DNA of 38,210 bases. Origin: a virus. The notes under the pieces were generated by a model. That model did no database searches. It was not told where the DNA came from and saw only the letters and a list, made by a program, of their open reading frames with translations. The position numbers were made by a program, and so were the translations under genes. Location: IMG/VR virus record IMGVR_UViG_3300017739_000030, positions 1 through 38,210 of that record; one strand, written 5' to 3'. Below, in pieces: positions 11,324 through 33,092 of the stretch; within the stretch, counting starts at the first letter, position 1; the number at the start of each line of letters is the position of its first letter.

Positions 11324-11362
11324 TTGACCAATGGTCGTGTGAACCGCTATAATAATAGTATA
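11324..11362 (+). promoter_or_regulatory. Sigma70-type early promoter with dyad element
   Basis: TTGACC (11324-11329), an 18-bp spacer and a perfect TATAAT (11348-11353). The -35 overlaps a small inverted repeat GACC-AAT-GGTC (11326-11336). The -10 is the left part of a 15-mer TATAATAATAGTATA (11348-11362), a variant of the TATAC-N5-GTATA dyad also seen at 13762 and 33078. The leader then reads AACAAACAAACACG before the ATG at 11377, similar to the leader of the cobS-like gene. Confidence 0.8.
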
Positions 11363-11376
11363 AACAAACAAACACG

Positions 11377-13581
11377 ATGATAAATCAAGAAGTCAAAGGC
11401 ACCCTCGCTAAACTACTAGCAACTGAGAACCTAACTGTAGAGCACCGTAAAGTTTCTACTGCTTGTTTCGATGTTGACAAGCGTCTCTTGATCCTCCCAA
11501 TCTGGAAGACTGCTTCTAACACTGTATATGACCTTCTAGTAGGGCATGAAGTAGGACACGCTCTCTACACCCCTAATGATCCCTTTGGAGACGCTCCTCA
11601 AGCATTTGTAAACGTTATAGAAGATGCTCGTATTGAAAGGATGATGAAGGAGACATATCCTGGTCTTCGTAAGTCTTTCTTTGATGGTTATGCAGAACTC
11701 TGGAATGATGATTTCTTTGGTGTAAAGCATGAAGAACTAGAGACTCTTCCTTTGATCGATCGTATCAATCTATATTTCAAAGGCAATCGTTCAATGCCTT
11801 TCCAAGAGGACGAACAGCATTGGGTAGATAGAGTTTCTACCACTAAGACATTCCAAGATGTAGTTGACCTTGCTAACGAAATGTATGGTCATGCTAAAAA
11901 GATTGAAGATGCAAAACCAAAATTTGATGAAATGGAAGATCTTTTAGATCAACTAGAAGATGCTATGTATGAAGAGGATGGAGAAGGTAAAGAAGGCGAA
12001 GAGATTGAGAGAGAAATAGATATGAAGAATCAAGATAGTAATGGTGAAACTAAACCAACTCCATCTTCTGATTCATCTGATACTAACTCTTCAGAGGATA
12101 CACAACCATTAGATACAACTAGACCAAATGGTATTGGTGGTAATCAAATGACTTCTAGTCATGATGAGACTAAGAGTATTACAGAGGAAGCATTAGCAGA
12201 ATCTATCGAAACTCTTGTTGATGAAGATGCAAGAGAGTGGGTTTATCTAACTCTTCCAGAAGTTAATCTTAACAAGATCATTGTTCCTCATGACAAAATT
12301 CAAGAAGATCTTAGATATTTCTTCTACGGTCAAGCATTCTCAGATAAAGAAGCACTAGATCATTACATGTCGAATCTAGATTATGCTGCTGATCACTATG
12401 AGAAATACAAGAAAGGTGCACAGAAGTCTGTCAACTATCTTCTAAAACAATTTGAAATGAGAAAGTCTGCTGATGAGTACAAGAGAGCAGCAATATCTAA
12501 AACTGGTGTTATCAACACTAACACTCTTTACAAATACAAACTAACTGATGACATTTTCAAGAAAGTCACAATAGTTCCTGAGGGTAAGAATCATGGTCTA
12601 GTAATGTATCTTGACTGGTCTGGTTCTATGAATCATGTTCTCTTAGATACGATCAAACAAGTATTCAACTTAGTATGGTTTTGTCGTAAAGCACAAATCC
12701 CATTCCGTGTATATGCTTTCCAGAGTGGATACAGTTATGGTGGATACGGAGAGAGTAAGATGCATGAGGGTGTAACTCCAAAAGCAAACTCTCTTGCCTT
12801 TGATAATTCTTTCAAACTCTTTGAGTTCTTCTCATCACGTCAAAACAAAAGATCACTTGAGGAGTCTATGAAGTTACTCTATACTCAAGCATTTGCAATG
12901 AATGGTTATCGTCTAAGATACTGTCAAGAGTATGGACTAGGTGGCACTCCTCTAGCAGAAGCAATGATGTGCACTCGTAAAATTGTTGCTGAACTAAAAA
13001 GAGTTGAAGGTGTTACTAAAGTAAACGTTGTATCTCTAACTGATGGAGAGTCAAATCCTATGAGTTACATGAGAGAGTATTCAGAGGATGATGGTTATTA
13101 CTATAGGGATGATGAGTTCCGTATCTCAAGTGTTCAACATTCACATGGAAAAGTATTCTTCCTTCGTGACCCTGAGACTGGATACACTCGTAAACTCAAC
13201 AGTAGTCCTTATGAAACTACTCAAACTCTGGTTAGTTACATGAGAGAGATTACTGATTACAACTGGGTTGGTATTCGTATCTGCAGTAAAGGAGAACTAA
13301 TGAGACTCGTTCGTTCAATAACCTTTGAGCAAGATTTCGCTGACCAAATTGACAAAGAGTGGAAGAAAAACAAATTTGCTATCATCAAAAAGAAAGCAGG
13401 TTTTACTGAGTCTTTCTACATCCCTGATAGGGGAACTGGTTATGGAACTGAAGACCTTGAAGTTAAAACTAAAGGCGAAGTTGCAACCAAAGCAGAACTA
13501 CAACGTGCATTCAAAAAGCACATGGGTTCTAAAATGACCAACAAAACAATCCTTAATGCCTTTATCGAGCAAATAGCATGA
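11377..13581 (+). CDS. Zincin-like plus vWA domain protein (CobT-like partner of the CobS-like ATPase), 734 aa
   Basis: The protein has two recognisable parts. The N-terminal ~180 residues carry HEVGH (57-61) in LLVGHEVGHALYTPNDPF, followed by NVIEDARIERMM, an HExxH plus downstream E/D arrangement like a zinc peptidase. An acidic, Ser/Thr-rich linker (about 180-285) follows. The C-terminal half is a von Willebrand A domain with the MIDAS DWSGS (413-417) and TDGES (555-559). vWA proteins of this shape pair with MoxR/CobS-type AAA+ ATPases, and the partner gene is next. Annotation as cobaltochelatase CobT is possible, but the HExxH and the phage context fit a remodelling or protease-like pair equally well. 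It has its own promoter at 11324. Confidence 0.8.
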   Translation: MINQEVKGTLAKLLATENLTVEHRKVSTACFDVDKRLLILPIWKTASNTVYDLLVGHEVGHALYTPNDPFGDAPQAFVNVIEDARIERMMKETYPGLRKSFFDGYAELWNDDFFGVKHEELETLPLIDRINLYFKGNRSMPFQEDEQHWVDRVSTTKTFQDVVDLANEMYGHAKKIEDAKPKFDEMEDLLDQLEDAMYEEDGEGKEGEEIEREIDMKNQDSNGETKPTPSSDSSDTNSSEDTQPLDTTRPNGIGGNQMTSSHDETKSITEEALAESIETLVDEDAREWVYLTLPEVNLNKIIVPHDKIQEDLRYFFYGQAFSDKEALDHYMSNLDYAADHYEKYKKGAQKSVNYLLKQFEMRKSADEYKRAAISKTGVINTNTLYKYKLTDDIFKKVTIVPEGKNHGLVMYLDWSGSMNHVLLDTIKQVFNLVWFCRKAQIPFRVYAFQSGYSYGGYGESKMHEGVTPKANSLAFDNSFKLFEFFSSRQNKRSLEESMKLLYTQAFAMNGYRLRYCQEYGLGGTPLAEAMMCTRKIVAELKRVEGVTKVNVVSLTDGESNPMSYMREYSEDDGYYYRDDEFRISSVQHSHGKVFFLRDPETGYTRKLNSSPYETTQTLVSYMREITDYNWVGIRICSKGELMRLVRSITFEQDFADQIDKEWKKNKFAIIKKKAGFTESFYIPDRGTGYGTEDLEVKTKGEVATKAELQRAFKKHMGSKMTNKTILNAFIEQIA

Positions 13582-13721
13582 AATGTAAAGTCCAACTATT
13601 CACTGCAGGTACAATCTTCTACGAGGTTGTACAATGCAGAGACTACGATCACGCTAAAAAGATAGCGGAATCACGCAATCCTGATTGCCAAGTGATGAGT
13701 GTGACAGCAGTGTTCGATTAA
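13578..13721 (+). CDS. Small conserved phage protein, 47 aa
   Basis: ATGA overlap with the stop of the vWA gene. The product begins MKCKVQLFTAGTIFYEVVQC and ends MSVTAVFD, with a strand-helix-strand shape: a beta strand, EVVQCRDYDHAKKIAESRNP (a helix with basic and aromatic residues), then a strand. It resembles small cyanomyovirus proteins found between the vWA and cobS-like genes. Soluble, no catalytic motif. It ends 18 nt before the -35 of the cobS-like promoter. Confidence 0.75.
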   Translation: MKCKVQLFTAGTIFYEVVQCRDYDHAKKIAESRNPDCQVMSVTAVFD

Positions 13722-13738
13722 CAAACTGTCCACTCCCC

Positions 13739-13776
13739 TTACACATAGCAGATATAACTGCTATACTTAATGTATA
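13739..13776 (+). promoter_or_regulatory. Early promoter with operator-like dyads upstream of the cobS-like gene
   Basis: TTACAC (13739-13744), a 17-bp spacer and TATACT (13762-13767). The spacer holds a perfect inverted repeat TAGCAG-ATATAA-CTGCTA (13746-13763). The -10 is the left arm of a second dyad TATACTTAATGTATA (13762-13776). The -35 is weak, so an activator or an extended recognition is likely. The leader reads ACAAACAAACAAGACCC, echoing the leader at 11363. It fixes the gene start at 13793 rather than the upstream in-frame codons. Confidence 0.65.
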
Positions 13777-13792
13777 CAAACAAACAAGACCC

Positions 13793-14860
13793 ATGCCTTT
13801 TGAACCTAATCCTGTGACAACCGAACAACTCGTTCAACACTTAACTGATAATGTTGGTGTTGAGGTAGGATGTTCTGACATTCGTAATTCAGCAGAGTCA
13901 CTAAGCGTATCTTATGCTACTGCTTGTAAGAGGTTAAAGTCTTATAAATCAGGTATAGGCAAATGGAATCTTACCACTCAGCAGATTGAAGAGTGCTTTA
14001 AGAAACCATCTGCAAAACCTGCAAAAGAAGTTTCATACATCCCAGATAAAGATGGCACCTATGTCCCTTTTGGTAATTTCACGTCTGTTCGTAAAGTTAT
14101 CTCATCCGATAAATTCTACCCTGTATTTATTACAGGTCTTTCTGGAAACGGTAAGACTCTATCGGTTGAGCAAGCGTGTGCAGCAACTAATAGGGAGTTA
14201 ATTCGTGTCAACATCACCATCGAGACAGACGAAGATGATCTTATTGGTGGCTTTCGTCTTGTTAATGGCGACACTGTTTGGCACAACGGCCCTGTGGTCG
14301 AAGCTTTGGAGAGGGGAGCTATACTACTTCTAGATGAGATCGATCTAGCATCAAACAAGATCTTATGTCTACAATCTATCCTAGAAGGTAAAGGTGTATT
14401 CCTCAAAAAGATTGGACGTTATGTAAAACCTGCTAACGGATTCAACGTTATTGCAACTGCAAATACTAAAGGTAAGGGTTCTGATGATGGACGTTTCGTA
14501 GGAACTAATGTTCTTAATGAAGCATTCCTAGAAAGATTCCCAATCACCTTTGAGCAAGAGTACCCATCTGCTGCTATCGAAAGCAAGATTCTATTGAATC
14601 AAGGATGTGATGCAGAGTTCACTGAAATGCTTATCAAGTGGGCAGGTGTTATCCGTAAGACATTCTTTGACGGTGGTGTTGATGAAGTTATTACAACTCG
14701 TCGTTTGGTTCACATTGTTCAAGCGTATTCAATCTTTGGAGACAAGTTGACTGCAATCACTAATTGTGTCAACCGTTTCGATGATGATACTAAGCAATCA
14801 TTCCTTGATCTCTATACAAAGGTTGACGCACAAGAAGAACTAGAGTATACTGAGGGTTGA
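13793..14860 (+). CDS. cobS: CobS-like AAA+ ATPase (MoxR/CobS family), 355 aa
   Basis: Residues 1-80 form a helical DNA- or partner-binding-like domain. The AAA+ core has Walker A GLSGNGKT (115-122), DDLIGGF (147-153), Walker B LLLDEIDLA (177-185), sensor I ATANTKG near 225 and the arginine region FLERFPITF. CobS is the ATPase of aerobic cobaltochelatase in cobalamin synthesis and is a classic cyanomyovirus gene. In phages it is encoded next to a vWA protein, so it may instead power a CobT/vWA remodelling complex. I chose the ATG at 13793 because earlier in-frame starts lie inside the promoter and the 13578 gene. It is followed by a promoter within its 3' end. Confidence 0.85.
   Translation: MPFEPNPVTTEQLVQHLTDNVGVEVGCSDIRNSAESLSVSYATACKRLKSYKSGIGKWNLTTQQIEECFKKPSAKPAKEVSYIPDKDGTYVPFGNFTSVRKVISSDKFYPVFITGLSGNGKTLSVEQACAATNRELIRVNITIETDEDDLIGGFRLVNGDTVWHNGPVVEALERGAILLLDEIDLASNKILCLQSILEGKGVFLKKIGRYVKPANGFNVIATANTKGKGSDDGRFVGTNVLNEAFLERFPITFEQEYPSAAIESKILLNQGCDAEFTEMLIKWAGVIRKTFFDGGVDEVITTRRLVHIVQAYSIFGDKLTAITNCVNRFDDDTKQSFLDLYTKVDAQEELEYTEG
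14823..14851 (+). promoter_or_regulatory. Sigma70-type promoter inside the 3' end of the cobS-like gene, driving DUF3310-45-44
   Basis: TTGACG (14823-14828), a 17-bp spacer and TATACT (14846-14851), giving transcription start near 14858 and translation of the DUF3310 gene from 14880. A hairpin GAGGGT (14852-14857) with ACCCTC (14866-14871) overlaps the presumed start and could act as a weak attenuator or protect the 5' end. Placement before the replisome genes makes functional sense. Confidence 0.7.
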
Positions 14861-14879
14861 GACATACCCTCTCTATATT

Positions 14880-15194
14880 ATGAGAAAGTACAGCGAGGAT
14901 GAAATCCTCAAAGAAATCTCCGATTATATCGGAAACACATATACAGGTCATTATTCTGTCGGTAACGTTCAGACTCTTGACCTTATTGATTCTGTTGGAG
15001 ACGCTGAAGCATTCTGTAGAAGTAACGTTCTTAAGTATGCATCACGTTACGACAGAAAAGGGACAGCAAGAAAAGACATCATTAAGATCATTCATTATGG
15101 AATGTTGCTCCTTCACTTCAATGACAAGTCTGCTGCAGCAACAGCATCAGCAGCAAACAATCCTACATCATTTTCAGTTGACTACGACCGATGA
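14880..15194 (+). CDS. DUF3310-type protein, 104 aa
   Basis: The core IDSVGDAEAFCRSNVLKYASRYDRKG...KDIIKIIHYGMLLLHF matches the DUF3310 pattern seen in many phages (helical, with the conserved N-x-(L/I)KY-x-x-R-x-x-x-K-G block). Function is unproven; the family was named for a suspected nucleotide kinase-related role. The C-terminus is Ala-rich and low-complexity. The stop overlaps the gene 45 start. It is the first gene after the promoter at 14823 and lies with the clamp genes, typical for cyanomyoviruses. Confidence 0.8.
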   Translation: MRKYSEDEILKEISDYIGNTYTGHYSVGNVQTLDLIDSVGDAEAFCRSNVLKYASRYDRKGTARKDIIKIIHYGMLLLHFNDKSAAATASAANNPTSFSVDYDR

Positions 15195-15850
15195 CCGTTA
15201 TTTCACAACCAACACTAGAAGTCCTAAAAAACTTCTGTGCGATTAATAAATCTATTGTTATCAAACCAGGTAACACAATTTCAACTCTGAGTATTAATAA
15301 AAATATTCTTGCTATTGCAGAAGTTGAAGAACAGTTTGATTCACAGATTTCAATTTATGATTTGGGTGTATTCATTGGAGGTTTGAATACTTTAGATGCA
15401 CCTAAGATTGATACGACAAACGAGAATTTTGTAACTGTAAGTGATAGTTCTGGAATCTACAAGTCTAGATTTTTCTATGCTGACCCAGATATTATCACTC
15501 AACCACCAGAGCGTGAGATTACTCTTCCATCTGAGGATGTAAAGTTTCGTCTCCGTTCTGTTGATCTAGACAAACTACAAAGAGTTGCAAGCATTTATTC
15601 TCTTTCAGATCTTTGTCTGGTTGGAAGTAAAGGTGAAATGGGATTACAGTTAACCGATAAGAAGAATGAAACTTCCAATACTTTTTCTGTTAATGTTGGT
15701 AAGACTGATGATGAATTTTGTTTCTGTTTTAAAGTTGAAAATCTAAAACTTATTAAAGGAGATTATAATGTCACTGTAAGTAAGCAAAACGTTGCTCTCT
15801 TTGAAGGTGATATGATCAAATACTTTATCGCACTAGAACCTAATTCCTAA
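15191..15850 (+). CDS. 45: gp45, sliding clamp
   Basis: gp45 is the trimeric DNA polymerase clamp, and also the activator of late transcription through gp55 and gp33. At 219 aa (T4: 228) it has the paired beta-alpha-beta pattern of two PCNA-like halves: TLEVLKNFCAINKSIVIKPG, VEEQFDSQISIYDLGVFIGGLNTL, and FRLRSVDLDKLQRVASIYSLSDLCLVG in the second half. It overlaps both DUF3310 and gene 44, the conserved T4 order 45-44-(62). Confidence 0.92.
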   Translation: MTVISQPTLEVLKNFCAINKSIVIKPGNTISTLSINKNILAIAEVEEQFDSQISIYDLGVFIGGLNTLDAPKIDTTNENFVTVSDSSGIYKSRFFYADPDIITQPPEREITLPSEDVKFRLRSVDLDKLQRVASIYSLSDLCLVGSKGEMGLQLTDKKNETSNTFSVNVGKTDDEFCFCFKVENLKLIKGDYNVTVSKQNVALFEGDMIKYFIALEPNS

Positions 15851-16794
15851 TGTCAAGTGATTTTTTATGGGTGGAGAAATACAGACCAAAGAATATTGAG
15901 CACTGTATTCTTCCATCAGATGTGAAAGAAACCTTTAAGGGTTTCGTAAAACAAGGAGAGATACCAAATCTCCTACTCTCAGGTACTGCAGGTGTTGGTA
16001 AAACAACTATTGCAAAAGCATTATGCACTGAGTTAGGGGCAGACTTCTATGTTATCAATGGTTCTGACGAAGGTAGATTCTTAGATACAGTAAGAAATCA
16101 AGCAAGTAATTTTGCTTCTACTGTATCACTTACTTCTACAAGTAAGCATAAAGTTCTTATCATTGATGAGGCAGACAATACTACTCCTGATGTTCAACTT
16201 CTATTAAGAGCAAACATTGAAACGTTTCAAAAAAATTGTAGGTTTATATTTACTTGCAATTTTAAGAATCGTATAATTGAACCTCTACATAGTAGAACTA
16301 CAGTTATTGAATTCAATGTAAGAGGAAAAACTAAACAAGAACTTGCAGCAGCATTCTTTGCAAGATGTAAGGGTATCCTTACTGCCGAGGATGTATCATT
16401 CTCTGATAAGGTTGTTGCAGAAGTTGTTAACAAATACTTTCCAGACTTTAGAAGAACTCTTAACGAACTTCAAAAGTATTCATCAACTGGTGCTATAGAT
16501 ACTGGAATTCTAGCAGCATTAGGTGATGCTAATATGGATGCACTTGTTACTGCATTGAAAACTAAAAAGTTCAATGATGTCAAGAAGTGGGTTCATTCTA
16601 ATCTAGATGCCGATCCTGTATCTATCATGAGGAAGTTGTATGATAATGCATCTTCTACAATGGATGGTCCTAGTGTGGCAGCAGCAGTTTTAATTATTGC
16701 TGAGTATCAATACAAGTCTGCTTTCGTTGTAGACCAAGAAGTAAATCTTCTCGCATGTTTAACACAAATAATGTTGGAGTGTAATTTTAAATGA
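15850..16794 (+). CDS. 44: gp44, clamp loader large (ATPase) subunit
   Basis: gp44 is the AAA+ subunit that, as a tetramer with gp62, loads gp45. At 314 aa (T4: 319) it starts with the VEKYRPKNIEHCILP signature (residues 8-22), Walker A GTAGVGKTT (45-53), Walker B LIIDEADN (103-110) and sensor FIFTCNFKNRI. The RFC SRC motif region reads LHSRTTV. The lid and collar helices follow. The stop is coupled to a small membrane gene (16791), and a Dam methylase is then inserted before gene 62. Confidence 0.94.
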   Translation: MSSDFLWVEKYRPKNIEHCILPSDVKETFKGFVKQGEIPNLLLSGTAGVGKTTIAKALCTELGADFYVINGSDEGRFLDTVRNQASNFASTVSLTSTSKHKVLIIDEADNTTPDVQLLLRANIETFQKNCRFIFTCNFKNRIIEPLHSRTTVIEFNVRGKTKQELAAAFFARCKGILTAEDVSFSDKVVAEVVNKYFPDFRRTLNELQKYSSTGAIDTGILAALGDANMDALVTALKTKKFNDVKKWVHSNLDADPVSIMRKLYDNASSTMDGPSVAAAVLIIAEYQYKSAFVVDQEVNLLACLTQIMLECNFK

Positions 16795-17003
16795 ATCTTT
16801 TTATATCATGTCCACCAGTATATACTCTACCTGGTACTTGGACTAAATGTAATGCCCTCATACCTCACTATAACGCTGATCCAAATGCAACCTTTGGTAT
16901 TTCTATATTAGTAATATTAGTTCTACTATCTGGGTTTGGGGTATACAGAGCATTCTTCAATAACGAAGGTCTTACTGATCAATGGGATGAACACGATGAC
17001 TAA
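16791..17003 (+). CDS. Small membrane protein, 70 aa
   Basis: Overlaps gene 44 by 4 nt. An N-terminal part with two cysteines (C8, C20) precedes a clear transmembrane segment FGISILVILVLLSGFGVYR (residues 35-53) and an acidic tail (GLTDQWDEHDD). Its place in the replisome operon, before another membrane protein and dam, marks a small insertion relative to the compact T4 order 44-62. Function unknown. Confidence 0.65.
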   Translation: MNLFISCPPVYTLPGTWTKCNALIPHYNADPNATFGISILVILVLLSGFGVYRAFFNNEGLTDQWDEHDD

Positions 17004-17253
17004 CAAAAGAGATAAAGTGAGAGCACAAGTAAAATCCAGATGGTATTATGCTTTCTGGGGTATAGCAACAGTATCTGTTGTTGGAGGTCAACTGTATGTT
17101 GGTTCTTCCTATCGCTCTATGGCACAGTCTATGAATAGATGGTTTGAAGAAACGATTGAAATTATGACTGAACCAATTAAAAGACAAAAAGGATACTACG
17201 CTCCTATGACACCACCTACTCCAGAGGATTGGGGAATGACTATTGTCGAATGA
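16996..17253 (+). CDS. Small membrane protein, 85 aa
   Basis: I chose the ATG at 16996 (MTNKRDKVRAQVKSRWYYAF...), which overlaps the upstream stop region by 8 nt; 16987 is an alternative ATG. A basic N-terminus precedes one hydrophobic span (YYAFWGIATVSVVGGQLYVG, about residues 17-36), then a soluble helical tail with EETIEIMTEPIKRQKGYY and a Pro-rich end. Positive-inside topology predicts the N-terminus in the cytoplasm. Function unknown; coupled to dam by ATGA. Confidence 0.65.
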   Translation: MTNKRDKVRAQVKSRWYYAFWGIATVSVVGGQLYVGSSYRSMAQSMNRWFEETIEIMTEPIKRQKGYYAPMTPPTPEDWGMTIVE

Positions 17254-18092
17254 TTACTAAGACTGCTTTAAAAACTCCTCTAAGATATCCTGGTGGTAAG
17301 TCTCGTGCTATTAAAAAGATGGCACAATTTTTTCCAGACTTTACAGACTATACAGAATTTAGAGAACCATTCCTAGGTGGTGGATCTGTATCATTATACA
17401 TCTCTCAGGTGTTCCCACATTTAGATATTTGGGTCAATGATTTATATGAACCCTTGTATTGTTTTTGGAAGACACTACAAGTAAGTGGTGATAAACTTTC
17501 AAAAGAATTAACTGAACTAAAAACTAGGTATCCTGATAGGGGTAGTGCAAGAGGATTGTTTATTGAAGCAAAAGAATACTTAGAAAAGAAACCAAACGAA
17601 TGCGACCCCTTTCATAGAGCAGTCGCATTTTATGTTGTTAATAAGTGTTCGTTTAGTGGTCTATCTGAATCATCTTCTTTTAGTCCACAGGCATCAGATT
17701 CAAACTTCTCAATGAGAGGTATTGAAAGACTTCAGTATTATAGTCAAGTCATTCGTAAATGGCAGATTACAAACTTATCATATGAAAAACTTTATGAAAA
17801 TGATGAGAATGTATTTGTATATCTAGATCCTCCATATGATATTAAAGCAAACTTGTACGGTAAGAGAGGCACAATGCATGTAGGATTTGATCATGACAAG
17901 TTTGCAACTAGGTGTGATAGATATCAATGTGATCAAATGATTTCTTACAACTCTTCTAATCTAGTAAAGAATCGTTTTGAAGGTTGGCAGCAGACAGAAT
18001 ATGATCATACATACACCATGAGATCTGTAGGTGAATACATGTCAGATCAACAACAGCGAAAAGAACTACTTCTTCTAAATTATGTCATCTAA
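17250..18092 (+). CDS. dam: DNA adenine methyltransferase (Dam, D12 class)
   Basis: Transfers methyl from S-adenosylmethionine to adenine N6. The N-terminal LRYPGGKSR (11-19) and FREPFLGGGS (37-46) are the SAM-binding motif I region, YLDPPYD (191-197) is the catalytic DPPY, and VVNKCSFSGLSES (129-141) matches the D12 family. The 280-aa length fits Dam of T4 and bacteria (about 260-280). The ATG at 17250 is chosen over an in-frame TTG at 17229 because it shows ATGA coupling to the upstream gene. It lies between 44 and 62, an unusual place. No cognate restriction gene is seen, so self-protection or regulation is likely. Confidence 0.92.
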   Translation: MITKTALKTPLRYPGGKSRAIKKMAQFFPDFTDYTEFREPFLGGGSVSLYISQVFPHLDIWVNDLYEPLYCFWKTLQVSGDKLSKELTELKTRYPDRGSARGLFIEAKEYLEKKPNECDPFHRAVAFYVVNKCSFSGLSESSSFSPQASDSNFSMRGIERLQYYSQVIRKWQITNLSYEKLYENDENVFVYLDPPYDIKANLYGKRGTMHVGFDHDKFATRCDRYQCDQMISYNSSNLVKNRFEGWQQTEYDHTYTMRSVGEYMSDQQQRKELLLLNYVI

Positions 18093-18477
18093 TTATCCTC
18101 TTAAGGATTATCTAAACTCACTCAATTACTCTAAACAATATTTGATGGGCGAGGATGAAGATCCTGGTTGGGAAAAGAACTATCCTTCATACGTCATTAA
18201 TAAATGTATGTCACATCATCTAGATACTGTCATGTTTGCTAACGAGATGAATATGAATGCAGGTTTAGATAATCGTTTGCAATATGATTTTTTTATAAAT
18301 ATCGTCAGAAGCCGTAGAAGGTTTTCACCTTGGGGTAAGAAACAAAAGATTGATGATCTTGAACTTGTGAAGCGTTATTATGGGTACTCCTATGAGAAAG
18401 CAAAACAGGCACTTGAGATACTCACTCCACAGCAAATTACTTTTATTAAAGATAAATTGAACATAGGGGGTCAGTGA
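18082..18477 (+). CDS. 62: gp62, clamp loader small subunit
   Basis: gp62 completes the gp44/62 clamp loader. At 131 aa (T4: 187) it has the cyanomyovirus-type features: PLKDYLNSLNYSKQYLM, YPSYVINKCMSHHLDTVMFANEMN, then RSRRRFSPWGKKQKIDDLELVKRYYGYS. The YPSYVINKCMSHHLD motif is the signature I rely on. It overlaps dam by 11 nt and is followed by regA after one base. Confidence 0.85.
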   Translation: MSSNYPLKDYLNSLNYSKQYLMGEDEDPGWEKNYPSYVINKCMSHHLDTVMFANEMNMNAGLDNRLQYDFFINIVRSRRRFSPWGKKQKIDDLELVKRYYGYSYEKAKQALEILTPQQITFIKDKLNIGGQ

Positions 18478-18478
18478 A

Positions 18479-18904: not shown

Positions 18905-18934
18905 TATATAGTATAGTGTTATCATATCAAAATA

Positions 18935-19345: not shown

Positions 19346-19350
19346 TTATC

Positions 19351-19584: not shown

Positions 19585-19593
19585 GAGGTTACC

Positions 19594-20193: not shown

Positions 20194-20202
20194 AGGTAGT
20201 CT

Positions 20203-23351: not shown

Positions 23352-23357
23352 AAACAA

Positions 23358-24428: not shown

Positions 24429-24439
24429 GATTGACTAGG

Positions 24440-24448: not shown

Positions 24449-24505
24449 CTATGTATAATATAACACCTTTTCAATTTAAATGCGTGTGGTAATTACCATA
24501 TAGAT

Positions 24506-24542
24506 AAGGGGGATTGACAAATGTCAGTTCCCCTTTTATAAT
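24506..24542 (+). promoter_or_regulatory. Consensus sigma70 promoter inside a 30-bp dyad
   Basis: TTGACA (24514-24519), a 17-bp spacer and TATAAT (24537-24542): a perfect consensus promoter for the Sm-like/gp43 unit. The -35 and spacer sit in an imperfect palindrome, AAGGGGGATTGACA (24506-24519), centre AA, TGTCAGTTCCCCTT (24522-24535), 11 of 14 paired, then T4. The same DNA can fold as a terminator for transcripts coming from pstS, and can also be an operator. Transcription would start about 24549. Confidence 0.85.
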
Positions 24543-24563
24543 ATGGAGGATCGTTATTTTTTT

Positions 24564-25152: not shown

Positions 25153-27638
25153 GTTCTTTTTACACCAACATTCAACTTGCTGGTGATACGATCTTATACA
25201 GAGGGTATGAAAATGGGAATCCCGTACAGTATCGGGAATCCTTTTCTCCTACCCTCTATGTTTTGTCTAAGAATAAAGAGAAGTTTAAAACACTTGATGG
25301 TAAATATGTTTCTCCTGTTAAGTTCAGTGCTGCAAGAGAAGCAAGAGAGTTTATCAAAACATATGATGGTGTAGAAAACTTTGAAGTTCATGGTTATGAA
25401 AGATTCGTTTATCAATACATCAGGGAACAGTTTCCCACAGATGTAGATTACGATATCAACCAGATGAAAGTCTATGCACTTGATATTGAGGTGCAATGTG
25501 AGAACGGATTCCCGAATGTAGAAGAAGCAGCAGAAGAAATGTTATCTATCACTATAAAGGATATGATAACTAAAAAGTATTATAGTTGGACAACAAAAGA
25601 ATTTGATGCACCAGAGGGGTTAACGTTAAACGTCTCATGGACAGAGCAAGAGATGCTCACAAATTTTTTAAAGTGGTGGGCAGAAAATACACCAGACATC
25701 TTGACAGGATGGAATGTTAACCTGTATGATATGCCATACATAGCTCGAAGAATTAATCGAGTGCTTGGTGAGAAGTGGATGAAATCCTTGTCACCTTGGA
25801 ATCGTGCAAATGAGAGGGAGGTTTATGTCCAAGGAAGGAAAAATTATGCTTATGACATTTCTGGGGTTAACATCCTTGACTATCTTGATCTTTACCGTAA
25901 GTTTACTTATAGTAACCAAGAGTCCTATCGTTTAGACCACATTGCTTTTGTGGAACTAGGACAACGTAAGGTTGACCATAGTGAGTATGAAAATTTCAAA
26001 GACTTCTACACATCTGATTGGCAGAAGTTTATGGAATACAACATCCAAGACGTTGAGTTGATTGACAGACTGGAAGATAAGATGAAGTTGCTAGAGTTAG
26101 CAATCACCATGTCTTATGACGCAAAGGTTAACTTTGAAGATGTATACTCACAGGTTCGTATGTGGGATACAATGATCTATAACTATCTTACAGATAGAAA
26201 TGTAGTTGTTCCTCCTAGACAGGCAGCAGCTAAAAAAGATGAAAAATACGCAGGTGCTTATGTCAAGGAACCGATACCAGGAAAGTATGATTGGGTTGTC
26301 TCTTTTGACCTCAACAGTCTGTATCCTCATCTTATTATGCAGTACAATATCAGTCCAGAGACCCTCTGGGAGACTAGACATCCCAGTGCGAGCGTTGAAA
26401 GGATCTTAAAACAAGAGATTGATTTTGATGGAAAGTTTGCTGTATGTGCTAATGGTGCACAATATCGTAAGGACATTCATGGTTTCCTTCCAGAGATGAT
26501 GCAGAAGATCTATGATGAACGCACGATATATAAAAAGAAGATGTTAATAGCAAAGCAAGAGAATGAAACAAAATCATCCGATAGACTCTCAAAAGATATT
26601 GCTAAATTTAATAACATCCAAATGGCAAGAAAGATCCAACTTAACTCTGCCTACGGTGCTATCGGCAACCAATACTTCAGATACTACAATCTTGCGAACG
26701 CTGAAGCGATCACGCTCTCAGGACAGGTAAGTATTCGTTGGATTGAACAACGGATGAATGAGTATCTAAATAAACTACTTAAAACAACGGAGGAGGATTA
26801 TGTCATTGCAAGTGATACTGATAGCATATATCTTAATCTCGGTCCTTTGGTTCAAAGTGTATACAAAGGGAGAGAAGCGAATGCTGAGAGCATCGTTACG
26901 TTCATTGATAAGATCTGTAAGTTGGAACTTGAGAAATATATTGAAAGTTCTTACCAAGCGTTGGCCGACTATGTAGGAGCGTATGATCAAAAGATGGTCA
27001 TGAAGCGAGAGAACATCGCTAACAAGGGCATCTGGACTGCGAAGAAACGTTACATTCTTAATGTATGGGATAGTGAAGGTGTTAGGTATACTCAACCTAA
27101 ACTTAAGGTTATGGGTATTGAGTGTGTTAAATCTTCAACACCTGCTGCCTGTAGAAACTCAATCAGAGATTGTCTTACAGTCATTATGAACGAGGATGAA
27201 GAAGCAGCACAAGAGTTTGTATCTAATTTCAAAACTCACTTTGAAGAATTACCAATCGAAGATATCTCATTTCCTAGAGGTTGCAATAATCTAAATAAAT
27301 GGTCTAACCCATCGAGTGTTTATAGTAAAGGCACACCCATTCATGTGCGTGGTGCACTGCTGTACAACTTTCATAACAAGAAAAATAAATTGACACATAA
27401 GTATCCTCTAATTCAAGACGGTGAAAAGATTAAATTTGTTTATCTAAAGACTCCTAACAAAATTGGTGAAAACGTGATTAGTTACTTAAATACATTTCCA
27501 AACGAATTTGGACTTGACAAACATGTGGACTATGAACTACAATTTAACAAGAGCTTCCTTGATCCAATTAAGGTCATCATGGATGTTATTGGGTGGCAAC
27601 CCGAAAAAGTAGCATCTCTGGAGTTTTTATTTGGATGA
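25149..27638 (+). CDS. 43: gp43, family B DNA polymerase
   Basis: Replicative polymerase with 3'-5' exonuclease. At 829 aa (T4: 898) it has ExoI DIE (112-114), the ExoII/III regions, the palm motif DLNSLYP (387-393; motif A), motif B KIQLNSAYG (495-503) and motif C DTDS (556-559). Thumb and clamp-binding C-terminus follow. Uninterrupted: no intron or split is seen, unlike some T4-like phages. It overlaps the Sm-like gene start and a small gene (27635). Sits with uvsX and 41, the usual replication cluster. Confidence 0.96.
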   Translation: MSSFYTNIQLAGDTILYRGYENGNPVQYRESFSPTLYVLSKNKEKFKTLDGKYVSPVKFSAAREAREFIKTYDGVENFEVHGYERFVYQYIREQFPTDVDYDINQMKVYALDIEVQCENGFPNVEEAAEEMLSITIKDMITKKYYSWTTKEFDAPEGLTLNVSWTEQEMLTNFLKWWAENTPDILTGWNVNLYDMPYIARRINRVLGEKWMKSLSPWNRANEREVYVQGRKNYAYDISGVNILDYLDLYRKFTYSNQESYRLDHIAFVELGQRKVDHSEYENFKDFYTSDWQKFMEYNIQDVELIDRLEDKMKLLELAITMSYDAKVNFEDVYSQVRMWDTMIYNYLTDRNVVVPPRQAAAKKDEKYAGAYVKEPIPGKYDWVVSFDLNSLYPHLIMQYNISPETLWETRHPSASVERILKQEIDFDGKFAVCANGAQYRKDIHGFLPEMMQKIYDERTIYKKKMLIAKQENETKSSDRLSKDIAKFNNIQMARKIQLNSAYGAIGNQYFRYYNLANAEAITLSGQVSIRWIEQRMNEYLNKLLKTTEEDYVIASDTDSIYLNLGPLVQSVYKGREANAESIVTFIDKICKLELEKYIESSYQALADYVGAYDQKMVMKRENIANKGIWTAKKRYILNVWDSEGVRYTQPKLKVMGIECVKSSTPAACRNSIRDCLTVIMNEDEEAAQEFVSNFKTHFEELPIEDISFPRGCNNLNKWSNPSSVYSKGTPIHVRGALLYNFHNKKNKLTHKYPLIQDGEKIKFVYLKTPNKIGENVISYLNTFPNEFGLDKHVDYELQFNKSFLDPIKVIMDVIGWQPEKVASLEFLFG

Positions 27639-27793
27639 AAAAAGCAATTTACCTTGTAGAGTATCAGAAAGCATTTGGTGCAGGCGAACATGCCAGATCT
27701 AAAACCTTTAATGATATCAAGGAAGCACAGTGGTTTGAACGTGCAATGAAACGTTCTAATTTTATTACTAAATTATTGACAGTTACAGAATGA
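27635..27793 (+). CDS. Small conserved phage protein, 52 aa
   Basis: ATGA coupling at both ends: it starts in the gene 43 stop and ends in the uvsX start. The product begins [20 protein letters not shown] with a basic helix [12 protein letters not shown], a strand-helix-helix small protein. An in-frame TTG at 27593 exists but breaks the coupling. T4-like cyanophages often have a small ORF here. Function unknown. Confidence 0.7.
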
Positions 27794-28794
27794 GTTTTCT
27801 AAAAGACATAGTTAAGGAGATCGACAATGAATACGCAACTCTCGTTAGTGATGGAGTGGCAGCTGGTGACACAAGCGGTTACATTGACACTGGTTCTTAT
27901 GTGTTTAACGCTCTCGTTAGTGGATCTATCTATGGTGGAGTCCCTGGAAACAAGATCACTGCTATTGCAGGTGAAAGCAGTACTGGTAAGACTTTCTTTT
28001 GCCTTGGCATTGTTCAACATTTCCTTGAGAGTAATCCAGATGCTGGCGTAATCTATTTTGAATCTGAATCTGCTATTAGCAAACAGATGATTGAGGATAG
28101 AGGTATTGATTCTAATAGAATGATGATTGTGCCTGTTACTACAGTACAACAATTTAGAACTCAAGCAATTAAAATTCTTGATAAATATACAGAGTTAGAT
28201 GATAAGAAACCTATGATGTTCGTTCTGGACTCATTAGGTATGCTCTCTACCAGTAAGGAGATAGAAGACTCTGAAGCAGGTAAAGAGACTCGTGACATGA
28301 CTCGTGCACAAGTTGTCAAATCTATCTTCCGTGTGCTAACCTTAAAGTTAGGGAAAGCAAGAGTTCCCTTACTTGTTACCAATCATACTTATGATGTGGT
28401 AGGTGCATACATTCCAACTAAAGAAATGGGAGGCGGTAGTGGACTCAAATACGCTGCATCAACAATTGTATATCTATCAAAGAAGAAGGAAAAAGATGGT
28501 AAGGAAGTTGTTGGAAATATTATCAAATGTAAAACCCAGAAGTCCAGACTAACGAAGGAGAACTCAAGTGTCGAGACTCGATTATTTTTTGACCGTGGAC
28601 TTGATAGGTACTACGGACTACTGGAGTTGGGTGAGAAGTATGGAGTTTTTGAACGTAAGGGAAACCGTATTGTTGTTGGGGAGTCTAGCGTCTATCCTTC
28701 TGCTATTCTCAAGGATCCTGACAAATACTTCACAACAGAAGTAATGAATAAATTAGACGAAGCTGCTGCCAAGGAGTTTCGCTATGGCAACTAA
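27790..28794 (+). CDS. uvsX: UvsX, RecA-like recombinase
   Basis: UvsX forms filaments on single-stranded DNA and performs strand exchange with UvsY help. At 334 aa (T4: 391) it has Walker A GESSTGKT (61-68), the catalytic VIYFESESA segment, Walker [12 protein letters not shown] and a loop with [11 protein letters not shown] (L2). Shortened at the C-terminus relative to T4. It is coupled to the small gene upstream and to the 2OG oxygenase downstream. Confidence 0.95.
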
Positions 28795-29350
28795 TCTAAA
28801 AGATTATATCAAGGTGTATGATCAAATGTTTGAAAAAACATTTTGTGATTCTGTAATTGAAGCGTACAACAATACAGATAAAACTGTTATTGATCGTGAG
28901 CAAAGACCTTCATTTACTGAGGTAAATATATCACAGAGGTATCTTGATAAAGATCCTCTTTGGATGAGTATACAAAAAACAATACAAGATGTATTTGTTG
29001 ATTGTATCCAGTTGTATATGAACTCCTTACAGGTTGAGGTTGACTTTCCTTCAAGGTATTCGTTTGAAGAATACCGAGTAAAGTATTATAATAATAACGG
29101 TCATGATCAATTCAAAGATCACGTTGATGTAGGAGACTACAATTCTGCTCGCAGATTTTTAGTTTTATTCCTATACTTAAACAATGTCTCAGTAGGTGGA
29201 GAAACATTTTTTCCTAGATTAGGAGAAGCGATTGCTCCTCAAACAGGTAGAGTTCTTATGTTTCCTTCCACATGGCAATACCGTCATGCAGGTCTACCTC
29301 CTGAGTCAGACAACAAGTATATCGTTGGAACTTATTTACACTACCTATGA
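28784..29350 (+). CDS. 2-oxoglutarate/Fe(II)-dependent oxygenase (prolyl-4-hydroxylase-like), 188 aa
   Basis: This family uses Fe(II), O2 and 2-oxoglutarate to hydroxylate proteins or small molecules. The metal triad is visible: H113 and D115 (FKDHVDVGD) and H168 (QYRHAG), with K178 ([12 protein letters not shown]) as the likely 2OG-carboxylate binder. The core double-stranded beta helix spans about 95-188. Common in T4-like cyanophages; the target is not known. It overlaps uvsX by 11 nt and gp41 by 4 nt, an insertion between recombination and helicase genes. Confidence 0.88.
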
Positions 29351-30726
29351 ATTTAGAAGTCACAATTCTAAGCAATCTTCTCTATAATGAGAAGTATACA
29401 CGGAAGGTTCTTCCTTTCTTGAAGGTAGATTATTTTACTGACAGATCTCATAAGGTTATCTTTCTAGAAATCCATGAGTATGTAACTCAGTATGATGCAC
29501 TACCATCTTTAAATGCCCTTGGTATTGAATGTCAAGAAAGAAGTGATCTATCCGAAGATCAATTTAAAGAAACAGTTGAGGTTTTAAATGTCCTTTCCAA
29601 TGATCCCTCGGAATACGATTGGCTCGTGGATACTACAGAAAAGTGGTGTCAAGAGCGTGCGATCTACCTATCGCTTATGGAATCTGTTAAGATTGCTGAC
29701 GGACAGGATTCCAAGAAAGATAAAGGTGCTATTCCTTCGATTCTTTCGGAAGCGTTAGGAGTATCTTTCGATCAGTCTGTTGGTCATGATTACATGTCAG
29801 ATGCAGAAGAAAGGTATGAGTTCTATCATCAAAAAGAAGAGAAGATTCCGTTCGATTTGGAATTCTTCAACAAGATTACAAAAGGCGGTCTTCCTAACAA
29901 GACTCTCAATATTGCTCTTGCAGGTACTGGGGTGGGTAAGTCTCTCTTTATGTGTCATGTTGCTGCTTCTTGTTTACTCCAAGGTAAGAATGTTCTTTAT
30001 ATTACCCTTGAGATGGCTGAAGAAAAGATTGCCGAAAGAATAGATGCTAACCTTTTGAATATACCCATTCAAAAAATAGTTGATCTTCCTAAAGTAATGT
30101 TTGAGAAAAAGATATCATCATTAAGTAAGAAGACACAAGGCAAGTTAATCATTAAAGAATACCCTACTGCGTCTGCACATGTAGGACATTTTAAATCATT
30201 ACTTAGTGACCTCGCTTTGAAAAGAAGTATAAAACCTGATATAATATTTGTAGATTATCTAAACATCTGTGCTTCACAGAGGTATAAAGGATCTATAGTA
30301 AACTCATATACCTATGTTAAAGCTATTGCTGAAGAACTCCGTGGTCTCGCAGTTGAGACTAAAGTACCAATCGTCTCTGCTACTCAGACTACTCGTGCGG
30401 GTTTTGGGAGTAGTGATGTTGATCTTACTGACACAAGTGAGTCTTTCGGTCTCCCTGCAACTGCTGACCTTATGTTTGCTCTTATTTCTACCGAAGAGTT
30501 AGAAGGGATGAATCAGATTATGGTCAAGCAACTGAAGAATAGATACAACGACCCTACAATGAATAAGAGATTTTGTATAGGTATTGACAGAGCGAAGATG
30601 AGATTGTATGATGTAGAGGAGTCTGCTCAAGACGACCTTGTTAACTCTGGACAAGAAGAAGAGAAGGTTGATCTTGTCAAACGTTTCAACGCTAAAAAAT
30701 CATTTAAAGAACTAAAGTATGATTGA
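29347..30726 (+). CDS. 41: gp41, replicative DNA helicase (DnaB-like)
   Basis: Hexameric helicase that drives the fork with primase gp61. At 459 aa (T4: 475) it has an N-terminal helical domain (about 1-150), Walker A AGTGVGKS (192-199), Walker B KPDIIFVDYLNIC and the DnaB-type motif QTTRAGF...DTSESFGLPATADL. Overlaps mazG by 8 nt. Confidence 0.94.
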   Translation: MNLEVTILSNLLYNEKYTRKVLPFLKVDYFTDRSHKVIFLEIHEYVTQYDALPSLNALGIECQERSDLSEDQFKETVEVLNVLSNDPSEYDWLVDTTEKWCQERAIYLSLMESVKIADGQDSKKDKGAIPSILSEALGVSFDQSVGHDYMSDAEERYEFYHQKEEKIPFDLEFFNKITKGGLPNKTLNIALAGTGVGKSLFMCHVAASCLLQGKNVLYITLEMAEEKIAERIDANLLNIPIQKIVDLPKVMFEKKISSLSKKTQGKLIIKEYPTASAHVGHFKSLLSDLALKRSIKPDIIFVDYLNICASQRYKGSIVNSYTYVKAIAEELRGLAVETKVPIVSATQTTRAGFGSSDVDLTDTSESFGLPATADLMFALISTEELEGMNQIMVKQLKNRYNDPTMNKRFCIGIDRAKMRLYDVEESAQDDLVNSGQEEEKVDLVKRFNAKKSFKELKYD

Positions 30727-31120
30727 TTTCAAAAAGTATACTGAATTTGTAGACGCTGTTACGTCTCAAGAGAGTAAATATGGTGGTCAATTTCAACTGC
30801 GATTAGTTGAACTATATTCTAAAGACTTTAATAGTCATCGAGCATTGACTGCTGCATTAGGACTATCTGCTGAAGCAGGTGAGTTTACTGAGATAGTAAA
30901 GAAGATACTATTCCAAGGTAAACCAGTTACTAAAGAAAATCTATTTCATATGAAACGTGAACTAGGTGATATCATGTGGTATTTTATCCAAGCATGTATT
31001 CTATTAGACACTACACCAGAAGAAATTATTGAAATGAATGTAGATAAACTTAAGTCTAGATATCCTGGTGGGGAGTTTGATGTACACTATTCTGAGAATC
31101 GTCAGGACGGTGATGTATGA
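30719..31120 (+). CDS. mazG: MazG-like nucleotide pyrophosphohydrolase, 133 aa
   Basis: MazG hydrolyses NTPs or, in bacteria, ppGpp. Metal-binding residues are visible: E52, E55 and E58 (SAEAGEFTEI) and E81 with D84 (RELGDIMWYF). This is the short phage MazG type (single domain, about 130-150 aa). Cyanophage MazG has been suggested to alter nucleotide pools or the stringent response. It follows gp41 and precedes a small gene at 31117. Confidence 0.92.
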   Translation: MIDFKKYTEFVDAVTSQESKYGGQFQLRLVELYSKDFNSHRALTAALGLSAEAGEFTEIVKKILFQGKPVTKENLFHMKRELGDIMWYFIQACILLDTTPEEIIEMNVDKLKSRYPGGEFDVHYSENRQDGDV

Positions 31121-31353
31121 GTGAAAAAATTACAGTTAAAGATTTTATAGAAATTGGTGAAGAGTTCTTTGACAAGTATTATTATGTTGCAAGGGAACTA
31201 GGTGAAGATCCTAAACCAGAAGAAATTTTAAAAGTCATGGATGCCTTGACTTCTATAGTTAGATACAATAGAGCTAATGAAACTAAACCTGTTGGATTTG
31301 CTACAGAAGAAAAACCAAAGGGTAGACTTTCTAACCTAGATGCGTTAGACTAA
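31117..31353 (+). CDS. Conserved phage hypothetical protein, 78 aa
   Basis: ATGA coupling to mazG. A helical, acidic protein: DFIEIGEEFFDKYYYVAREL followed by EEILKVMDALTSIVRYNRAN and a Lys/Pro tail ending SNLDALD. No motif beyond two helices. I recognise it only as a conserved cyanomyovirus type located after mazG. Function unknown. Confidence 0.7.
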   Translation: MSEKITVKDFIEIGEEFFDKYYYVARELGEDPKPEEILKVMDALTSIVRYNRANETKPVGFATEEKPKGRLSNLDALD

Positions 31354-31357
31354 ACGC

Positions 31358-31855
31358 ATGAACATATTCGTTACTTCCCCAGATCCTGTTGCATCGGCAC
31401 AGGTTCTTCCCGACAAGCACGTCGTAAAAATGCCCCTAGAAACTTGTCAGATGCTATCTATTGTTGCATCAGAAAAGTGGGGTCATGGTTTTGGTGTTCT
31501 ACCTAAAGTAGATGGTTCACCATACAAAACAGACAAAGGTGCATTCCGTAATCATCCTTGTACTATCTGGGCACAAACAAATTTTCGTTGGTTGATTGAC
31601 CACGGACTTGCTTTATGTGCTGAGTATACACATAGATATAATAAGACACACAGTTGTCAATATACTATTGAGTGTGCTGATATCATCTTTGATGATTGTC
31701 CTCCTCCTACAGACTTTGCTTTTGCAGGTCCTGATCAGTTTAAATACGATACAAGTATTGATATCTTTACTGCATATAAAAGATACATTGCATCTAAACC
31801 TTGGGTATCAACTAATTATCTTCGTGATCCAACACGCAAACCAGAATGGGTATGA
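31358..31855 (+). CDS. Conserved phage protein with DKHVVKM motif, 165 aa
   Basis: The motif DPVASAQVLPDKHVVKMPLE, then TCQMLS, belongs to a widespread phage family of unknown function. The protein has several conserved His, Cys and aromatic residues (WGHGFG, FRNHPCTIWAQTNFRWLIDHG, AEYTHRYNKTHSC), which could form a metal or nucleic-acid site. The C-terminal part reads KPWVSTNYLRDPTRKPEWV. No signal peptide. Its stop overlaps the next gene's ATG. Confidence 0.75.
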   Translation: MNIFVTSPDPVASAQVLPDKHVVKMPLETCQMLSIVASEKWGHGFGVLPKVDGSPYKTDKGAFRNHPCTIWAQTNFRWLIDHGLALCAEYTHRYNKTHSCQYTIECADIIFDDCPPPTDFAFAGPDQFKYDTSIDIFTAYKRYIASKPWVSTNYLRDPTRKPEWV

Positions 31856-32103
31856 TAAAAATCTATGCTTCTATGATGATCGCTGCAGTAGCATGGTGTG
31901 CTGCAGCACAGGCAGAACAAGTGGAATTGCCTAAAGAAACACTACATGGAGAGATAGACATATGGAATGTAAATCATCTCGTGGGTATAGAACATATGTT
32001 TATAAGAAATGCAAGAAAAGAACAGATAGAAAAGAATATGACCCAACCAGTTGATGCTATAGATGCTGCACTAGAAAATTTTGAGAAGAACATAAATAAT
32101 TAA
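31852..32103 (+). CDS. Small secreted protein with signal peptide, 83 aa
   Basis: The ATG at 31852 overlaps the upstream stop (ATGA). A signal peptide MIKIYASMMIAAVAWCAAAQA has a probable cleavage before EQVELPKETL. The mature part (about 62 residues) is charged and helical (LVGIEHMFIRNARKEQIEKN, PVDAIDAALENFEKNINN). An ATG at 31846 would add 2 residues. Periplasmic; function unknown. Confidence 0.7.
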   Translation: MIKIYASMMIAAVAWCAAAQAEQVELPKETLHGEIDIWNVNHLVGIEHMFIRNARKEQIEKNMTQPVDAIDAALENFEKNINN

Positions 32104-32122
32104 GTGGAGACCTGCGTAACTA

Positions 32123-33028
32123 ATGGCACGGAATACAGACCTAGCAGATGTCAATGAAATATATTGTGCTTTTGCATTAAACAAAAATAAATTTCCTGAC
32201 TCTGCATCAGAATCACAATACAAGAAAAAGGTAGAACTTCTTACTGAGGAACAAATCATTCAGCAAGTTGGTCGTGCTACTGTTATGTCTAAAGACTTTC
32301 TAATGTGGGCAAAGAAGCATGGTTATGAAGGTGTTCAAAAAGTATATTGGACAGCAAGACCTGGCTTTTCTTTTAAAGCGGTAGTTGGTGTAGATGTTAA
32401 TCAGAAAAAAAATCCTACTGACGTTTTGATCAAGTTCAAACGTGGTGGGTTTCTTGGTTTATCTGCCAAGTCAACATCTGGTAAAGGTGATATAGGATTT
32501 AAGAATCCTGGTGTAGGTACTGTAGAAAAGGATTTGGGAATAGACTTAAACGATATTAATAAGAGAGCAATAAAAGAAATAGTTAAAGACTTTGATCTAC
32601 CTCAATCAGCAAGTAGTAGAAAGAGTGCGATCAGAAAAAATAAGGCAACCAAGATGGTTACTGAAAAGGTTGGTCAAGCAGTTTTAAATGAGATGAGAGA
32701 GTTTATGTTAAAAACAGTAAACAAACTTGACCAAGGAAAGAGAAGGACTTATATTATGAAGAGTTGGATTGATGCCAGTGCAGACTTGTATCCTCCATAT
32801 GTAAAGGTCACAGGTAAAGGAACTAAGAATCCTTTTACTGCTGATATAGAAGATCCATTAAACAACCCTAAGTTAAAAGCACTTATGGAAAACAAAATTA
32901 TGTTTGAAAAAGTTGGTAATGAATCTATTGGAGTTAAGGCAGGTAATAAAAAGATATTAAAGATGAGGTTTAAATATGAGTCTGAGAAACTAGCAAGTAG
33001 TATGAAAATGTCTGGAGATCCTTGGTAG
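32123..33028 (+). CDS. Conserved phage hypothetical protein, 301 aa
   Basis: A soluble alpha/beta protein. The N-terminal 90 residues are helical and charged (LADVNEIYCAFALNKNKF). The segment DVLIKFKRGGFLGLSAKSTS (about 97-116), with an Asp followed about 16 residues later by S-x-K, resembles the D...(D/E)xK core of restriction-endonuclease-like nucleases, but the second acidic residue is not obvious, so I do not call it a nuclease. The C-terminal half is rich in Lys and has repeated helices. Cyanomyovirus-type conserved hypothetical protein; it precedes the ligase-like gene at 33105. Confidence 0.6.
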   Translation: MARNTDLADVNEIYCAFALNKNKFPDSASESQYKKKVELLTEEQIIQQVGRATVMSKDFLMWAKKHGYEGVQKVYWTARPGFSFKAVVGVDVNQKKNPTDVLIKFKRGGFLGLSAKSTSGKGDIGFKNPGVGTVEKDLGIDLNDINKRAIKEIVKDFDLPQSASSRKSAIRKNKATKMVTEKVGQAVLNEMREFMLKTVNKLDQGKRRTYIMKSWIDASADLYPPYVKVTGKGTKNPFTADIEDPLNNPKLKALMENKIMFEKVGNESIGVKAGNKKILKMRFKYESEKLASSMKMSGDPW

Positions 33029-33077
33029 ACACTTTATAAACTGGCACACCTACACTATGGATTCTACTTTGGAGTGC

Positions 33078-33092
33078 TATACTAATGGTATA
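33078..33092 (+). promoter_or_regulatory. Early promoter -10 / dyad TATACTAATGGTATA
   Basis: The 15-mer TATACTAATGGTATA (33078-33092) is the third copy of the TATAC-N5-GTATA dyad (others at 11348 and 13762) and is flanked by GC on the left and GACACAGAC on the right. No good -35 stands 17-18 bp upstream, so it may be activator-dependent. It implies that translation starts at ATG 33105 rather than 33057. Confidence 0.5.

Follow-up and report, generated by a model that had tools for sequence, protein, structure and literature searches.

Three short sites in the DNA of a cyanophage probably belong to one promoter class, and that class is the subject of this article. The sites lie in the linear IMG/VR record IMGVR_UViG_3300017739_000030, whose 38,210 bases (the window, from here on) are a fragment of a T4-like cyanomyovirus with its replication cluster. 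A sequence-only reading of this window had seen at each site a 15-bp dyad, TATAC-N5-GTATA, and had taken it for either an extended early promoter class or a set of phage operators. What we find is a larger element, in which a box upstream of each -10 hexamer, the right half of a palindrome as we read it, is held at a nearly constant distance from that hexamer. This pattern and its spacing are conserved, and they are specific to one group of phages. We think it likely that sites 1 to 3 belong to a class of early-type promoters in T4-like cyanomyoviruses, served by host RNA polymerase together with a dimeric activator.

In the arrangement we propose, a palindrome TGTGMCASTT-N4-AASTGKCACA would lie at about -65 to -42, its center at about -53.5, followed by a degenerate -35 region and a sigma70 -10 box, TATAMT, the first T of which falls 29–31 bp, mostly 30, past the TGKCAC of the palindrome. 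Four bases beyond the -10 would come a start-region motif, RYATA, probably with +1 at its first A, then a ACAAACAAA-like leader and the start codon. Host RNA polymerase carrying its housekeeping sigma factor would read the -10, while the dimeric activator, seated on the palindrome, would touch the polymerase at a fixed distance. We infer activation because the spacing from palindrome to -10 is held within one base and because the palindrome is located farther upstream than the -35 region. The parts of the three sites, with the genes they precede, are as follows.

11296–11319, plus strand: site 1, 24-bp imperfect palindrome GTAGACAGTTGAAAAAGTGTCCAC; right half TGTCCA at 11313–11318, 29 bp before the -10
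11348–11362, plus strand: site 1 core, TATAATAATAGTATA; -10 box TATAAT at 11348–11353, N4, start-region GTATA at 11358–11362
11377–13581, plus strand: site 1 gene, phrog_459 'peptidase', 734 aa, ATG at 11377
13710–13733, plus strand: site 2 upstream element GTGTTCGATTAACAAACTGTCCAC; right half TGTCCA at 13727–13732, 29 bp before the -10; left half weak
13762–13776, plus strand: site 2 core, TATACTTAATGTATA; -10 box TATACT at 13762–13767, N4, GTATA at 13772–13776
13793–14860, plus strand: site 2 gene, cobS, 355 aa, ATG at 13793
33025–33048, plus strand: site 3, 24-bp imperfect palindrome GTAGACACTTTATAAACTGGCACA; right half TGGCAC at 33042–33047, 30 bp before the -10
33078–33092, plus strand: site 3 core, TATACTAATGGTATA; -10 box TATACT at 33078–33083, N4, GTATA at 33088–33092, within the first codons of the open reading frame (ORF) 33057–34028
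33057–34028, plus strand: site 3 gene, phrog_455 protein; second in-frame ATG at 33105, downstream of the putative promoter

The sequences and coordinates of the three cores are exactly as first read, each is preceded by GC and followed by an A/C-rich leader, and the left arm does look like a sigma70-type -10 box. The shared TATAC/GTATA dyad survives at sites 2 and 3 but not at site 1, which reads TATAA/GTATA, and the claimed 13–17 nucleotides (nt) from motif to start codon come out as 14, 16, and 12 nt at sites 1, 2, and 3, counted from the end of the motif to the ATG that follows. Transcription from site 1 would start near A11360.

A palindrome at a fixed distance from the -10 box

When relatives were aligned, TGTCCAC or TGGCACA was found upstream of the sites. 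We measured how far downstream of TGKCMC a TATAAT-like hexamer lies, over distances of 10 to 54 nt, in six phage genomes and the window (seven sequences). There were 36 pairs at 30 nt, 13 at 29, and 10 at 31, with 1–11 at each other distance; at 30 nt the opposite strand gave 3 pairs and a scrambled box 1. The two halves are strictly placed as well, GTGMCA being followed by TGKCMC 20 times at N10 and 0–3 times at every other distance from 0 to 44. We read the box, in its forms TGTCCA, TGGCAC, and TGTCAC, as the right half of the palindrome TGTGMCASTTNNNNAASTGKCACA. Eighteen strict palindromes in the six phage genomes have a -10 at 30 nt in 16 cases, at 29 in one, and none in one.

The same composite appears well beyond these genomes. 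Scanning IMG/VR with the spacing at N30 returned at least 120 stretches, against 11 in all for the N24 control, and proteins like those of six T4-like cyanophages are encoded at 119 of 120 N30 loci (among the matches listed) and at 4 of the 11 controls. The consensus of 131 non-redundant IMG/VR sites is again TGTGMCASTTNNNNAASTGKCACA, and its symmetry extends to positions that the search pattern had not imposed (T-65, S-58, T-57, T-56, A-51, A-50, S-49, and A-42).

The three sites of the window fall within this distribution. Their gaps from TGKCMC-like box to TATAMT-like -10 are 29, 29, and 30, inside the class peak of 29–31. With a weight matrix made from the IMG/VR sites, site 3 scores 32.5, the highest in the window, and site 1 comes second at 21.9; the next place that is not one of the sites scores -4.2, and the best of six Markov shuffles reached 10.1. 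Site 2 owes its membership to its relatives: among 44 distinct upstreams of cobS, 42 have the box 29–31 nt ahead of the -10, and some carry GTGACA-N10-TGTCCA. The whole pattern appears to be matched by sites 1 and 3, site 2 being a weaker variant.

Two observations on other members of the class belong here. In S-TIM4 (L231) at 41523–41544, and in three more of the 18 strict palindromes (4/18), a -10 lies at 29–31 nt on both sides, and these may be divergent promoters served by one palindrome. In Syn9 (L084, L086) the annotated starts of gp61 (44804), gp73 (48608), and gp183 (148771) lie upstream of or inside class promoters; the true starts are probably further downstream, or else promoter and coding sequence overlap.

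A contrasting promoter upstream of gp55

The sequence-only reading had also pointed to a related -10 at 5076 that lacks the right arm. GCTATACTTAA is indeed present at 5074, and it belongs to a promoter of a separate class, that of gp55:

5053–5081, plus strand: gp55 promoter, TTGTCA at 5053–5058, N17, TATACT at 5076–5081, without the upstream box

Among 54 distinct gp55 upstreams (from 80 loci, those with less than 120 nt upstream or a duplicate sequence having been dropped), TTGWC stands 16–18 nt before the -10 in 47, and the TGKCM box in none. Sites 1 to 3 do not answer to this description of an activator-free, host-like sigma70 promoter (TTGWC at 16–18 nt, no box), for all of them carry the box. 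Their best -35 candidates are TTGACC (at 11324, site 1), CTTACA, and ACTATG.

Beyond the -35 of gp55, at 5018–5039, CCCTTACAGTGTTATTGTACAC recurs little changed in many relatives. It may be a site for a regulator of the late-sigma gene.

Why the dyad is not the unit

That the dyad was worth noticing is clear from its frequency. The pattern TATAMTNNNNGTATA occurs at three places in the window, both strands counted, where 100 dinucleotide shuffles gave a mean of 0.09 and none reached 3. It also overlaps the -10 and the start, the classic position for a repressor, and across 14 related records it finds 22 places against 2 for the reversed pattern. The case could thus be made for an operator, covering -12 to +3, through which a phage repressor would shut these genes down together. 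We give this idea next to no credence, and the reason is how the two arms behave in relatives.

We fetched 80 cobS loci and used 73 relatives, which gave the 44 distinct upstreams; in the other seven (L073, L075, L077, L078, L079, L081, and L082) the match did not begin at residue 1. One of 12 site 1 loci and one of 29 site 3 loci were likewise dropped, lacking the gene start. The arm pairs of the 44 cobS upstreams are TATAA/GTATA (18), TATAA/ACATA (6), TATAC/GTATA (5), TATAA/AGGTA (4), and six rarer pairs (11 together). Only TATAC/GTATA is palindromic, so two-fold symmetry is present in 5 of 44 and is not maintained; the right arm turns into ACATA, TCATA, AGGTA, or CTATC with no compensating change on the left. 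All 11 relatives that reach the site 1 start keep the upstream box, while the right arm is kept in 3 and lost in 6 (alignment by eye), and at site 3 a synonymous GGT/GGC change disrupts the arm.

The 131 non-redundant promoters, numbered on the assumption that the -10 begins at -12, prefer A or G at +1, T at +2, and A at +3, and then run into an A-rich leader. We take the right arm for a start-region motif because right arms vary with no match on the left, because the arm is lost at site 1 of relatives, and because of these preferences at +1 to +3. The dyad, then, reads as a -10 box followed by RYATA, the two being mirror images only by occasional chance. Of the two possibilities offered at the outset, the promoter class is supported, and in enlarged form, for at 21 of the 22 dyad places in the related records a TGKCM box lies 28–31 nt before the -10; the dyad operator is not, its symmetry not being kept.

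A probable promoter inside a reading frame

Twelve nt separate the end of site 3 from an ATG at 33105, which also falls within the ORF 33057–34028. Since this frame spans the site, the motif might reflect nothing more than a conserved peptide, CY(T/N)NGI, and in 28 relatives the start of the frame, MDSTLxCYxNGIxT or a close variant, is indeed kept as protein, with third-position changes. That site 3 is merely coding sequence nonetheless strikes us as improbable: a noncoding TGGCAC or TGTCAC (TGKCAC) lies 29–31 nt before TGCTATAAT in Syn9, S-SM1, G002, and others, and S-TIM4 retains the box, the -10, and the GTATA with no ATG there. What fits best is a frame whose 5' end contains a promoter and which has a second in-frame start at 33105; the coding and promoter roles of the site can both hold.

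Activator, repressor, or neither

The chief rival to our reading keeps the upstream palindrome and changes what it does. As the operator of a repressor, it would let a phage product switch the early genes off at the middle phase. Strict palindromes are common in phages (13 in six genomes) and very rare in hosts (9 of 201 genomes of the WH7803 family), and a suitable product might be at hand, in that a 57-aa AbrB/MazE-like protein is encoded in the early cluster of Syn9 (53843–54016; L085:3843–4016) and is present in all six phage genomes. Its MazE/AbrB match, however, falls below the Pfam cut-off (21.4 against 24.7 bits), and as a matter of general knowledge a spacing of 29–31 bp from a position upstream of -42 is more typical of contact between an activator and polymerase. 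We consider a repressor unlikely, if less so than the other alternative, that these are plain sigma70 promoters whose box arose by coincidence or is left over from terminators and the ends of genes. In favor of that view, the left half of the palindrome often extends into the end of the preceding gene, and in some relatives (L036, L040, L050, and others) a terminator-like hairpin (GACCCTCCC...GGAGGGTTT) lies between the cobS upstream box and the -10, so that the spacer of the promoter seems to incorporate a terminator for the preceding gene. The sharp distance peaks and the N24 control argue against coincidence, the box persists where the upstream gene end differs, and the sigma70 promoters of gp55 never carry it (0/54). 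We find this explanation very unlikely.

Several points nevertheless weigh against an activated early promoter at sites 1 to 3. Site 2 scores -9.5 with the weight matrix, seventh of the listed scores on both strands; this is because it combines TGTCCA with a weak left half and the matrix penalizes TGTCC, a form that had been excluded by the search pattern from which the matrix was made. At sites 1 and 3 the left half reads TAGACA (at N10), not GTGMCA. The label 'early' comes from the place of such promoters in clusters of small unknown genes in Syn9 and S-TIM4. A repressor that contacted polymerase would need fixed spacing too. As for the activator, ten small Syn9 proteins conserved in the six phage genomes gave only the one weak MazE-like hit among DNA-binding Pfam families, HTH_17 is absent above its cut-off from the six genomes, and nine proteins encoded near the host palindromes described below found no convincing relative among the matches listed from 2131 phage ORFs. 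The factor that binds the palindrome could be a regulator from the host or come from the phage, the Syn9 57-aa product being one such candidate.

In S-TIM4, four of the dyad-pattern places sit in such a cluster of small unknown genes, at 49–52 kb.

The palindrome in host genomes

Might the phages have borrowed the palindrome from their hosts? In three of the nine genomes with a strict match (G033, G086, and G113) it stands 429–442 nt before the start of 16S rRNA, which was identified by sequence in all three and by Rfam in G033 and G113. The strict palindrome of G135 precedes the same 16S leader, and G154 and G184 have one-mismatch palindromes with the same promoter sequence as the 16S-linked sites. 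The flanks of these sites diverge while the palindrome stays. Ten genomes of this rRNA-linked genus hold 29 matches at no more than one mismatch, against 10 for the control, and their 24-bp site, TGTGACAGTTTGATTAGTGGCACA, may be compared with the phage consensus TGTGCCAGTTGAAAAAGTGGCACA. Elsewhere in the genus, sites precede an HTH_17/PIN gene pair or an HTH_17 gene, AAA_16 ATPases, a GajB-like UvrD helicase, and a type IIG restriction enzyme; some of the genes are unknown. Yet another genome has such a site in front of an integrase, with TAAATT following at 30 nt. With the full consensus at two mismatches, 16 of 400 genomes gave 23 places against 3 for the control; with the short pattern at two mismatches, some smaller genomes exceed the control (13 against 1; 14 against 2). 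Searching 50,697 phage records with the host promoter by blastn returned 11 weak hits (best E 0.1), nine of them cyanophages and centered on the palindrome. Loci that display the host palindrome are L487, L488, and L516 (upstream of rRNA) and L533–L543 (defense- or mobile-type genes among them).

From all this one could suppose that the phage palindrome is a borrowed host operator, bound by a dimeric host activator of growth-linked transcription. The idea is tentative and we lean away from it, given how much tells the other way. Twelve cyanobacterial genomes, WH7803, RCC307, and WH5701 among them, hold no strict palindrome, and WH7803 with the short pattern at two mismatches is at control level (14 against 13). 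Within two mismatches the palindrome is absent from 24 of the 26 16S upstreams examined, and where it occurs in hosts the -10-like hexamer is mostly 32–33 nt away, not 30. In L533/L534 the site is flanked by convergent genes, next to a restriction gene but not upstream of it. At least one of the 16 full-consensus genomes' hits, L550, resembles phage sequence, and some host hits may be phage DNA in the bins. If the idea were true, phage early genes, rRNA, and the genes that respond to phages would all be driven from one signal, and a link between host growth state, defense, and phage take-over would become directly testable.

The rest of the window

The genes of the window include UvsW, gp47, gp46, the phrog_459 'peptidase', CobS, gp45, gp44, a methylase, DNA polymerase, UvsX, and gp41. 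Between 8.5 and 14.9 kb the matches are to Synechococcus and Prochlorococcus phages; those listed have 71–75 % identity, with S-TIM4 and P-RSM4 the best among them. In the ORF-finder call the cobS frame reaches back to a TTG at 13685. A 917-aa ORF at 8546–11299, between gp46 and the phrog_459 gene, matches phrog_22305 (unknown function), where the S-TIM4 annotation shows only a small ORF of 240 bases. At 24514–24542 a TTGACA-N17-TATAAT directly abuts the first ATG of the ORF at 24543, which suggests a leaderless transcript or a later true start.

Two other kinds of promoter were considered and set aside. Promoters for a single-subunit phage RNA polymerase were rejected, as no window protein that was scanned matched an RNA polymerase, the large ORFs among them being DNA polymerase and phrog_22305. 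So was a late-promoter reading of sites 1 to 3, the late-promoter-like motif TATAAATA occurring in the window only at 18294 and 37663.

Known systems and what the class may mean

Doron et al. in 2016 reportedly found a novel regulatory element for Syn9 early genes and host-like promoters for the middle genes. The likeness to our class lies in the phage group and in the control of early genes, and their element may be the palindrome described here. If those classes apply, the host-like class would correspond to the gp55-type promoters, and the early class probably to those with the palindrome. In T4 itself, early promoters have AT-rich sequence upstream where the cyanophage class has its palindrome, and the MotA box of middle promoters is near -30, the palindrome at about -53. 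T4 early promoters (sigma70, with Alt-modified polymerase) resemble the cyanophage class in their host sigma70-type -10 and their clustered small early genes, and T4 middle promoters (MotA box plus -10) in having a fixed-distance upstream element with a sigma70 -10 and no need of a good -35. The differences are that the Alt/Mod modification genes and motA and asi are missing: according to a 2010 review (PMC2984593), cyanomyoviruses are without homologues of alt, modA, modB, motA, and asi. The same review notes sigma70-like motifs before early genes of S-PM2 and Syn9 and calls early and middle control in T4-like cyanophages unclear. NtcA-type promoters (GTA-N8-TAC), as described in PMC3037559, also place an activator site upstream of the -10, in cyanobacteria and cyanophages alike, but differ in half-sites and spacing.

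A CRP- or NtcA-type site was rejected, the consensus misfitting the half-sites or the spacing. The literature searched, which mostly excluded subscription papers, did not yield the palindrome in print, and the portions consulted of PMC5780444, PMC5931967, PMC5082946, PMC5490813, PMC6359870, PMC9964418, PMC9004378, PMC5312081, PMC9692554, and PMC7238727 do not print the early element.

An element locked in its spacing, with a consensus that can be computed, allows candidate early promoters to be listed in cyanophage genomes and metagenome contigs, and it puts several annotated gene starts in question. The 24-bp palindrome is also a bait with which its factor could be isolated. Above all, the class bears on how genes are timed in T4-like cyanophages, which manage without the polymerase-modifying and MotA/Asi proteins of T4.

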